Below, piece by piece: positions 31,015 through 33,505 of a DNA stretch of 48,728 nt. A program made the position numbers and the translations under genes. A model generated the notes under the pieces. It was not told the DNA's origin. It ran no database searches and saw only the letters and a program-made list of their open reading frames with translations. Position 1 is the stretch's first letter. Each line of letters starts with the position of its first letter. Source of the stretch: Porphyromonadaceae bacterium (GTDB taxonomy: Bacteria > Bacteroidota > Bacteroidia > Bacteroidales > UBA12481); the NCBI GenBank assembly GCA_007280905.1, contig QYQM01000084.1:1-48728 (forward strand). Direction: 5' to 3'.

Positions 31015-32187
31015 ATGCGAAAATTCTCAGCCCACAGGATCTACCCGGTCAGCGGCCTGCCCATCTCCTTTGGTATTATTGAGACAGCCGACGACGGAAC
31101 CATCCTGAACATCCGGAACACAGGCGGGCAGCCGATAGAGGAAGCCGGGCTCGAATTCTATTCGGGTATAATCATTCCCGGACTGGTTAATGCCCATTGC
31201 CATCTTGAATTGTCACATCTCGCCGGTTTGATCCCTCAGCGTACCGGTATCACCGGCTTTGTTTCGGCGGTAAGCAAAATTCGTTCATCCGATCCGGAAA
31301 AAATCCGGCAGGCAGCAAACAACGCCGATCGAAAAATGTACCGGGATGGAGTATCCGGTGCCGGAGACATCAGTAACACTGGTATCACCTTATCAACCAA
31401 GCAGGACAGCCGGCTTCAGTACCATACCTTCGTTGAAGTGTTCGGACTGGATAAAGCAAACGCAGCGATCAGGTTTGAGCAGGCACTCCAATTGGCAAAA
31501 GCATTTAACGATGCCGGTCTGCCCCACTCTATCTCTCCCCATGCTCGCTATTCTGTAGGGGTTGACCTTTGGGAACTTATAACCCGGGAAATTACGCTGA
31601 CCAGGCGCATCAGCATTCATCTAGACGAGAGTCCGAATGAGCGTGAGCTTCTGGAACACCGCACCGGTATTATGGCTGAGAATTTCCGGCAAGCCGGTTT
31701 CGATCTGACCAGCATACCCGATGAAGCCTCCGACGTTTTCAAATTACTTGGCAAATATTTGCCCGATTCGGATTGGATCCTGGTGCATAATACAATCACG
31801 GATCCCCTGCCAGCACCGGGCAGTCTGAAGTCTGGGGTCTATTGGGTTCTCTGCCCCCGGTCAAACCTATACATCGAAAACCTTTTACCGGATATTGAGG
31901 GGTTTGCAGCCAGCGGGCTTACCGTTTGCCTGGGAACCGACAGCCTCGCCTCAAACCTTAACCTTTCGGTGTTGGATGAGATGAAAACGATCATGGAAGT
32001 GGTGCCAGGAATTGCCTTTGATACCGTTTTACGGTGGGCCACCTTAAATGGAGCCTGTGCATTAGGGATGGAGAAAAATCTGGGCACCATCGAAAAAGGC
32101 AAGAACCCGGGCCTGGTAAATATTCCGGTTTTTGATTGGAACAAGGACCGGCTATCTGCCGAAAGCAAGTCCATCCGCTTGATTTAA
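31015..32187 (+). CDS. Amidohydrolase (cytosine/aminofutalosine deaminase-like)
   Basis: 390 residues of the COG0402 metal-dependent hydrolase group. Metal and catalytic motifs: NAHCHLELSH near 60-69, SPHARYSVG, HLDESPNERELL, LVHNT, and LGTDSLASNLNLSVLDEM. Members deaminate purine-like or triazine compounds; the set of residues fits a one-metal deaminase, and aminofutalosine deaminase is one possible role, but no other futalosine-pathway gene is in the window. 9 nt after the DUF4296 gene, so likely in the mla operon. Confidence 0.8.
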   Translation: MRKFSAHRIYPVSGLPISFGIIETADDGTILNIRNTGGQPIEEAGLEFYSGIIIPGLVNAHCHLELSHLAGLIPQRTGITGFVSAVSKIRSSDPEKIRQAANNADRKMYRDGVSGAGDISNTGITLSTKQDSRLQYHTFVEVFGLDKANAAIRFEQALQLAKAFNDAGLPHSISPHARYSVGVDLWELITREITLTRRISIHLDESPNERELLEHRTGIMAENFRQAGFDLTSIPDEASDVFKLLGKYLPDSDWILVHNTITDPLPAPGSLKSGVYWVLCPRSNLYIENLLPDIEGFAASGLTVCLGTDSLASNLNLSVLDEMKTIMEVVPGIAFDTVLRWATLNGACALGMEKNLGTIEKGKNPGLVNIPVFDWNKDRLSAESKSIRLI

Positions 32188-32190
32188 GGC

Positions 32191-32598
32191 TTATTCAAAG
32201 CCCTTCGACCGCATATAATCCGGAGCCTCTGAACCAAACACGGTGATATAGTTTAGAAACCATCCCATCATGAATTCAATCAATTCTAAGCAGATATCAG
32301 TTTCACCCTGGCTAAATCGCTGCTGAAAACGGGATATCCCGGAGGTAAAACGCTGATGCTCTTTCTTATAGTCGGAAAACGGAATGGCAGGTGCTTCCCT
32401 GATGGCCATCTCCTTTTTCGCAAAATAGTCCTCAATATAAAAAGCCAGCCTATGAACGACCAACGGCAACCGTGTAGCGCAGTTTTTTGAGTTGCAGATA
32501 TCAATCAATTCATTGACAATATCCAGATAGTTTCTCCGGTGATTATCCAGATAATTTAAACCCGAAGAATACTCCTTTTCCCACCTGATCTTTTCCAT
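32191..32598 (-). CDS. Hemerythrin-like protein with lost iron ligands
   Basis: 135 residues with the bacteriohemerythrin four-helix layout (starts KIRWEKEYSSGLNYLDNH). Aligned by eye with canonical bacteriohemerythrin, only His20 and His81 remain of the seven iron ligands. The HxxxE position reads Tyr58 and Lys62, the first His of HxxxH is Tyr77, and the last His is Tyr118 with the Asp missing. A normal oxygen-binding di-iron site is therefore unlikely. It is convergent with the amidohydrolase (3-nt gap) and stands alone on its strand. Confidence 0.7.
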   Translation of the reverse strand: MEKIRWEKEYSSGLNYLDNHRRNYLDIVNELIDICNSKNCATRLPLVVHRLAFYIEDYFAKKEMAIREAPAIPFSDYKKEHQRFTSGISRFQQRFSQGETDICLELIEFMMGWFLNYITVFGSEAPDYMRSKGFE

Positions 32599-32696
32599 TG
32601 TTAAGGTTATTAAAGTAAACAGGAAATGTCTGGAAAAGGTAATCCCTGGTTAACCTCCTCAAAATGATAAATATCACCATATCGTGGCAAATCCAC

Positions 32697-32728: not shown

Positions 32729-33505
32729 ATGGCTACTTTTTTGTTTGACGATATCATTTTCGGTCCTGTAAAAAGCAGGCGACTTGGTGCTTCGCTGGGC
32801 ATCAACCTCCTTCCCACAACCGGAAAATTCTGCAATTTCAATTGCATTTACTGCGAGTGCGGGTGGAGTTCCGGATCAGATCTAAGAACCCGGCTGCCCT
32901 CGCGTGAAGAGTTACGTATTCGCCTTGAAGAAAAGCTCTTACAAATTCAAGGCCTTAGAACCAAACTCAACCGGATCACATTTGCCGGGAACGGAGAGCC
33001 TACCCTTCATCCCGATTTTCCGGGTATCATAGCAGATACCATCGGGATACGCGACCGGATTGTCCCCGGTGTTAAAATTGCGGTTCTGTCAAATGCGTCT
33101 AATCTGGATAACCCGGAAATATTTGATTCGCTCGGAAGGATCGAAATGAACATTCTGAAACTGGATTCAGCGAATGAACAGACAGTAAAACTGATGAACC
33201 AACCGCCCTTAGGTTATCGTGTCGACCGGGTGATTGAAGGAATGATGCGGTACAAAGGCCGTTTCGTCCTCCAAACCCTCTTTGTGAAAGGTGAGTTCGG
33301 CGGAATTCACGTGGATAATTCCGGAGAAAAAGAGGTTAAGGGTTGGTTAGAAGTGGTTAAGAAAGTGAGGCCGGAAATGGTAATGATTTATACGATCGCC
33401 AGGGATACACCGATACAAACCCTTCAGAAAATAAAGCCGGAAATCCTGGATAATATCGCCGGTGAGGTCCGTCAGCTCAATATCCCTACGCAGGTTTCGT
33501 ACTAA
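32729..33505 (+). CDS. Radical SAM protein, COG0731 (Tyw1-like) family
   Basis: 258 residues from the ATG at 32729, where the family opening FDDIIFGPVKSRRLGASLGI follows directly. The cluster motif is CNFNCIYCECGW (CxxxCxxC plus an extra Cys). THFAGNGEPTLHP-type sequence (ITFAGNGEPTLHPDF) is the glycine-rich SAM region, and KLDSANEQT follows. The group is named after wyosine-tRNA enzymes, but the bacterial members have no proven reaction. Followed after 9 nt by a glycosyltransferase gene. Confidence 0.87.
   Translation: MATFLFDDIIFGPVKSRRLGASLGINLLPTTGKFCNFNCIYCECGWSSGSDLRTRLPSREELRIRLEEKLLQIQGLRTKLNRITFAGNGEPTLHPDFPGIIADTIGIRDRIVPGVKIAVLSNASNLDNPEIFDSLGRIEMNILKLDSANEQTVKLMNQPPLGYRVDRVIEGMMRYKGRFVLQTLFVKGEFGGIHVDNSGEKEVKGWLEVVKKVRPEMVMIYTIARDTPIQTLQKIKPEILDNIAGEVRQLNIPTQVSY

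Follow-up and report, generated by a model that had tools for sequence, protein, structure and literature searches.

A conserved hemerythrin-fold protein of Bacteroidales with a replaced iron-ligand set and an FNR/CRP-like motif upstream of its gene

Hemerythrin, an iron protein that binds oxygen, is a textbook diiron fold. We describe a hemerythrin homologue, encoded in a contig of a Porphyromonadaceae bacterium (the window, that is, the whole stretch of 48,728 nucleotides that was analysed), in which six of the seven iron-ligand positions are changed and a single ligand, H81, is kept. Altered hemerythrins are already known; what is new here is a motif that lies upstream of 35 of the 37 members of the wider family to which this protein belongs, compared with none of 18 canonical domains. 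The gene does not look moribund: it seems to encode a functional protein put to a new use, since its relatives hold near-identical replacements and the same probable control site.

The gene lies on the minus strand, and the plus-strand frame over 32191-32598 is interrupted by stops on frame translation. Its 135-residue product scored 53.2 bits against the NCBIfam model TIGR02481, above the cut-off of 51.75, and remained below the cut-offs of NCBIfam NF033749 (64 bits; cut-off 84) and Pfam PF01814 (15.4 bits; cut-off 25.3). An AlphaFold2 model, computed from the window protein together with four named Bacteroidota relatives (five close sequences), reached a pLDDT of 74.9 and a pTM of 0.62. When this model was compared with the PDB using Foldseek, the first matches were bacterial hemerythrins (seven entries, TM 0.68-0.79), with E-values of 2e-3 to 1.4e-2 and thus none at 0.001 or better. 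VIA-align gave Z-scores of 14.4-16.1 against eight bacterial hemerythrin entries, and 12.9 for the best other helical bundle. The window protein is a hemerythrin homologue by its sequence, with a four-helix hemerythrin fold according to the model, and the view taken in a preliminary description of this DNA that the fold is kept agrees with the TIGR02481 score, the presence of Trp6 and the structural matches. The gene and the codons discussed below are as follows.

32191..32598 (stop codon included), minus strand: hemerythrin-fold protein with a replaced ligand set, 135 aa (open reading frame call, homology and model)
32536..32538, minus strand: R21 codon, in the slot of the first canonical His ligand (4xpw H22); R in 9/9 orthologues, as CGG, CGT, AGG or AGA
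32479-32481, minus strand: C40 codon, second hallmark Cys; C in 8/9 orthologues and 22/28 other wider-family members
32425..32427, minus strand: Y58 codon, at ligand His58; Y in 9/9 orthologues and 20/28 other members
32413..32415, minus strand: K62 codon, at the bridging Glu ligand; K in 9/9 orthologues, with three changes on the tree
32368..32370, minus strand: Y77 codon, at ligand His77; Y in 9/9 orthologues and 0/28 other members
32356..32358, minus strand: H81 codon, the sole ligand kept; H in 43/43 rows of the tree set
32290..32292, minus strand: C103 codon, wider-family hallmark; C in 9/9 orthologues, 27/28 other members and 0/6 canonical rows
32248..32250, minus strand: Y117 codon, at ligand His117; Y in 9/9 orthologues and 2/28 other members
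32233..32235, minus strand: G122 codon, at the bridging Asp ligand; G in 7/9 and D in 2/9 orthologues (L011, L012)

The ligand positions were assigned from a phmmer alignment with the bacteriohemerythrin 4xpw, which contains one gap of a single residue and pairs R21 with H22, Y58 with H58, K62 with E62, Y77 with H77, H81 with H81, and Y117 with H117. We take these aligned positions of 4xpw to be its iron ligands. The hemerythrin ligand motif H-HxxxE-HxxxH-HxxxxD, as given in one published account (PMC9388753), agrees with the 4xpw positions and sets G122 on the Asp. The seven positions of the window protein are then R21, Y58, K62, Y77, H81, Y117 and G122. The preliminary description had correctly placed Tyr58, Tyr77 and Lys62 at ligand positions and had noted that His81 and Trp6 are retained. 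Its third Tyr, given as residue 118, is Tyr117 in the alignment, and His20, which it had counted with His81 as a second remaining ligand, is paired with Q21 of 4xpw; the six canonical rows all have Q20 followed by H21. Because H20 falls on the Gln before the ligand His, whose slot is taken by R21, only one ligand is left rather than two, and H20 is ruled out as a ligand. The final Asp had been described as missing, which is true of the window protein, with G122, and not of the two orthologues that still carry Asp.

The search of the genomes of the window's own family recovered the gene in nine of twelve, its own included, and in all seven of those with completeness of 90% or more and contamination of 5% or less. 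Three of the twelve show no copy, among them G011 (99% complete, contamination 6), so the gene may be dispensable in the family. The eight other copies share 51-82% identity with the window protein and the reading frame is intact in all nine. R21, Y58, K62, Y77, H81 and Y117 are unchanged throughout, so that five of the six replacements are invariant; the conservation of the three Tyr in the nearest family, which had been proposed as a check, is thereby confirmed. Silent codon turnover is seen at these conserved sites, at R21 (four codons, listed above) and at Y117 (TAT and TAC). Between the window gene and its three nearest relatives, L005, L006 and L007, dN/dS is 0.093, 0.055 and 0.051, respectively. 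For farther pairs dS is mostly saturated, and four distant same-family pairs with usable dS give 0.14-0.26. These ratios show purifying selection on the coding sequence, less strict between distant pairs than between near ones.

The preliminary description had concluded that the changes are not random decay, arguing from the repeated replacement of His by Tyr. By a codon-table argument, the H-to-R, the three H-to-Y, the E-to-K and the D-to-G changes can each arise by a single transition in a codon for the canonical residue. A bias towards Tyr is by itself what mutation would yield, and we set aside the claim that H-to-Y changes cannot be decay. Its conclusion stands on other grounds, namely the conservation of the replacements alongside synonymous changes, the low dN/dS and an upstream motif kept in all nine orthologues.

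To place the protein among its relatives we searched 393 genomes of the order, of which 100 matched a profile of the nine sequences at E 0.001 and 117 matched a wider profile at 1e-12. The nine orthologues score about 231 bits or more, and the next best match in the order scores 112 bits. The wider family was sampled by 28 further rows (L020-L041 and others), drawn from 15 families of the order besides the window's; a fragment, L085, was left out of the tree and the counts, and identical rows and rows with fewer than 90 aligned residues were left out of the tree set. Most of these 28 keep the canonical ligands: H21 occurs in 21, E62 in 24, H77 in 25, H81 in 28, H117 in 24 and D122 in 23. Tyr58 is found in 20, in 12 of them with the other six ligands (four His, two acids) intact, and all seven ligands are present in three. 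The hallmark cysteines C103 and C40 are present in 27 and 22, respectively.

In the tree of 43 rows, which was built with the ligand columns excluded and whose change counts do not orient the direction of change, the nine orthologues form one clade (support 93/95) within the 37-row family, and the family is split from six canonical rows at 100/100. C103 and the upstream motif in 9/9, together with a position apart from the canonical rows, place the window protein within the wider family. The tree row nearest to the nine is L026, with six of seven ligands (99/93), although on a long branch that makes its placement unsure. Tyr58 is present in 20 of the 28 other rows, and 12 of these have the remaining six ligands unchanged, so the forerunner was probably a Tyr58 hemerythrin, beyond which the window's family would have gone further. 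The order-wide family with Tyr58, C40, C103 and the upstream motif (for example L021, L034 and L035) probably consists of Tyr-ligand diiron proteins outside mycobacteria. K62 occurs in three separate groups, the nine orthologues, L042/L053 and L058/L059, for which the tree needs three changes. In the latter two groups (L042:1396-1890, L053:1675-2172, L058:3786-4166 and L059:7533-8003) further ligands are gone and H81 has stayed. Fifteen columns are family-specific, four of them at ligand positions and one being the start Met, where other rows have no letters; the enrichment for ligand positions is modest (hypergeometric P 0.003, with columns treated as independent).

Outside the order, the changed ligand set was not recovered in the class search, where 3 of 395 genomes match at all, the window's own included (best other 63.9 bits), or in the phylum search, where 36 of 395 match, again including its own (best other 73 bits). 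Twelve domains from 11 loci retrieved elsewhere in the phylum all read HHEHHHD, without C40, C103 or the motif. Ligand sets were read from retrieved loci, with the order's lower-scoring matches mostly outside this reading, and further variants may exist.

The local genomic context of the gene is shared with other members of the family. Two conserved neighbours flank it in the window:

31015..32187, plus strand: amidohydrolase gene (PF01979), convergent; in 7/8 neighbourhoods of the window's family and in other families
32729..33505, plus strand: radical SAM gene (PF04055), divergent; in 5/8 neighbourhoods of the window's family and in several others

The start of the radical SAM gene is assumed to be the ATG at 32729; the open reading frame list gives a GTG at 32684. 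This gene is divergent in several families and has a common upstream region with the hemerythrin gene, with which it may be co-regulated. We scored the 28 wider-family rows for at least one adjoining gene of the set amidohydrolase, DUF4296, radical SAM and GT28. Such neighbours adjoin 15 of the 28, a lower bound, as many loci have only 1.5 kb of flank. At least five of the seven ligands are kept by 14 of these 15, and ten have Tyr58. The preliminary description had held that orthologues with intact ligands would mean simple decay. Taken literally, such orthologues exist in these 14; simple decay is nevertheless not indicated, because orthologues that keep both neighbours and ligands indicate an ancestor with a more complete ligand set, and after it a change that became fixed and was then constrained.

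Upstream of the gene lies a further feature common to the family:

32662..32676, minus strand: FNR/CRP-like operator candidate, TGATATTTATCATTT, 64-78 bases before the ATG; family-wide motif

All nine orthologues carry TGATNTTT(A/G)TCATT upstream. Across the family, TGA(T/C)N4(A/G)TCA occurs within 200 bases upstream of 35 of 37 genes, compared with 0.64 expected from Markov-resampled upstream regions, with the distance counted from the first aligned codon rather than from a mapped start. In all 35, TT follows directly, which extends the motif to TGA(T/C)N4(A/G)TCATT. The two members without the motif within 200 bases are L043 and L063. Upstream of canonical domains it was found in none of 18 cases (0/6 tree rows and 0/12 elsewhere in the phylum), of which L060 has just 74 bases of upstream sequence. 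Among 163 open frames in 21 loci, 22 have the longer motif in the 200 bases that precede them, each a family gene or a divergent neighbour sharing its upstream region. It is also present in loci of 5-12 kb (L052-L055, L062) for which tblastn gave no hit to the radical SAM or GT28 neighbours, so the motif appears to follow the hemerythrin gene. A promoter motif known for Bacteroidetes has a full match in only one of the nine upstream regions. Published HcpR sites, as given in one source, have other outer bases, TTGACnnnnGTCAA and GTAACnnnnGTTAC (PMC1274295).

We then counted TGAYWWWWRTCATTD in the twelve genomes and found 94 sites, compared with 54 for a reversed-pattern control (palindromic places entered once per strand); the reversed control outnumbers the motif sites in G291 and G353. 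Sixty other motif places were retrieved, from ten of the twelve genomes, and their genes were clustered by blastp, with one representative of each cluster named. The recurring downstream genes encode a Crp/Fnr regulator (six loci), aldehyde ferredoxin oxidoreductase, AOR (six), DUF364 (four), glycine C-acetyltransferase with a divergent epimerase gene (four), multihaem cytochrome c (three), methylmalonyl-CoA mutase (three), phosphotransacetylase (three), NuoE (two) and glutamate dehydrogenase (two), with one further unnamed cluster of two members. Of the 64 motif hit lines, 20 fall within open frames and presumably arose by chance. Three of the six Crp/Fnr regulators, all from the window's genus, contain CX2CX3C and two further Cys (C108/C111) about 90-100 residues on, which we take to resemble the [4Fe-4S] cysteines of FNR, and an ESVSR helix that presumably resembles the FNR recognition helix. 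One of them, which has the CX2CX3C at its N-terminus and lies on contig 167 of the window's own genome (L126:751-1446), is divergent from a multihaem cytochrome c gene, with the motif between the two. An operator-like site is common to the upstream regions of the hemerythrin genes and of Crp/Fnr regulator genes. From these sequences we infer that an FNR-type protein binds the motif, and TGAYWWWWRTCATT is a candidate operator of a putative autoregulated FNR-type anaerobic regulon (Crp/Fnr, AOR, cytochrome c, Pta, methylmalonyl-CoA mutase, NuoE and glutamate dehydrogenase).

The window's own genome encodes three other HHE proteins, which belong to other classes as judged from their translations: one is RIC-like, one has a PAS-like region and one lies beside a NorB-like gene. 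None has the motif in the stretches retrieved. The last, a 150-residue HHE-type protein (L001, also on contig 167), adjoins a gene whose translation resembles NorB-type NO reductase.

With bacteriohemerythrins (4XPX, which we take to be that of M. capsulatus, and DcrH-Hr, 2AVK) the window protein shares the fold, the length, Trp6, Asp18, H81, Trp113 and the single-domain architecture; it differs in the six replaced ligands, in C103 and in the FNR/CRP-like motif, and its family mostly has C40 as well. With the rest of the wider family it shares C103, the upstream motif, Tyr58 in 20/28 and the same neighbours in 15/28, whereas most of those members keep H21, E62, H77, H81, H117 and D122. The hemerythrin-like protein (HLP) of M. 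kansasii is described as a diiron protein that has a fifth helix and whose ligands are four His, two Glu and one Tyr; the same source attributes a Tyr ligand to mycobacterial HLPs and reports that it does not occur in other groups (PMC8913304). A Tyr among the ligand residues is common to the HLPs and the present family, in which 12 of the 28 other members combine one Tyr with four His and two acids, a likeness in composition. The window protein itself, in which three Tyr and just one His occupy ligand positions, lies outside the HLP composition, and no mycobacterial HLP structure was among the PDB matches of the profile or among the fold matches listed.

A 2008 survey reports that 58 of 327 bacterial hemerythrin sequences deviate, with His most often changed to Gln, that 11 of 59 deviant sequences are altered in two helices, and that Tyr belongs to a group of hydrophobic residues replacing ligand His (PMC2556348). 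Literature searches on metal-free hemerythrin and on hemerythrin with Bacteroidales returned no title or abstract describing the present case, with most subscription journals outside their scope. Class Ie R2 proteins of ribonucleotide reductase, from a superfamily different from hemerythrin, offer an analogy. In these, three metal-binding glutamates are reported to be substituted (VPK or QSK) and function continues metal-free (PMC11846895). The likeness lies in a diiron fold whose metal-binding residues are substituted, with Lys among the replacements; DOPA chemistry finds no support in the present data.

We judge it a little more probable than otherwise that the window protein belongs to an anaerobic regulon and has a hemerythrin fold without metal, in which an Arg/Lys-Tyr-His network refills the iron cavity. 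It cannot bind iron in the hemerythrin manner, because both bridging acids are gone in seven of the nine orthologues and K62 and R21 add positive charge; these changes, together with the class Ie R2 analogy, favour a metal-free bundle, and we count on the same side that each of the three separate K62 groups has further ligand losses. Counted against it are H81, which is never lost in the 43 rows, and Y77, H81 and Y117, a three-donor set at the old Fe1 site fit for a ferric-tyrosinate metal. A new metal site is thus possible, with a metal-free role the more likely. The ferric-tyrosinate/anion manner of metal binding is that of transferrins and intradiol dioxygenases. Stated broadly, a three-Tyr/one-His site with Arg and Lys, converted from a five-His diiron O2 site and working either in that transferrin-like manner or as a class Ie R2-like metal-free Tyr-Lys redox site in an oxygen-responsive anaerobic regulon, is doubtful but conceivable. 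Its mononuclear form, in which Y77, H81 and Y117 (the old Fe1 triad) with Y58 would bind one Fe3+, is unlikely: the Tyr, His and Tyr donors are present in 9/9, H81 persists throughout the tree set, D122 persists in 2/9 and R21 and K62 could hold a synergistic anion, yet K62 stands at the former bridging carboxylate, beside the metal, and the other two K62 groups also lose further ligands.

The iron site might instead simply have been lost with nothing taking over, the protein being kept for its surface (as a dimer or for a partner) and Tyr, Lys and Arg being the packing residues that arose first. The ease of all six changes by single transitions fits such a course, as does their place in a wider shift of 15 family-specific columns. 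We nonetheless consider it doubtful: five replaced residues are invariant across 51-82% identity despite silent codon turnover, which suggests that the replacements themselves matter, and the enrichment at ligand positions, though modest, points the same way. That the protein binds haem or some other cofactor through an axial Tyr is very unlikely, as the conserved Tyr and His are all that speaks for it, and a protein that keeps the length and fold of hemerythrin would have no obvious room for haem. A pseudogene or an assembly artefact is scarcely credible; the sub-threshold Pfam score and the missing ligands could be read that way, but the frame is intact in 9/9, dN/dS is well below 1 and the upstream motif and neighbours are conserved, and these data refute it.

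In the preferred metal-free reading, the window protein would descend from a diiron, probably Tyr-ligand, bacteriohemerythrin that gave up its iron, took on an internal polar network in its stead and retained gene position, upstream control motif and a selected function. K62 and R21 would each put a positive charge at a former iron-holding position, that of the bridging carboxylate and that of the first His, respectively, and Y58, Y77, Y117 and H81 would hydrogen-bond around them, allowing the bundle to fold and present its surface without iron. The gene would be expressed alongside anaerobic-metabolism genes under an FNR-type regulator, and the protein would serve as a metal-independent binding or structural partner, acting through a putative partner. 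Its iron-binding orthologues are presumably redox-sensitive modules, of which the window protein may be a version fixed for good in a 'loaded-like' state.

The upstream motif ties this hemerythrin family to anaerobic metabolism. If the three-Tyr/one-His site is real, the hemerythrin bundle, known for its diiron site, would have a second kind of chemistry. With the ligands exchanged and then held, and with gene position and a probable oxygen-response motif constant, the family poses directly the question of what the hemerythrin fold does without iron.
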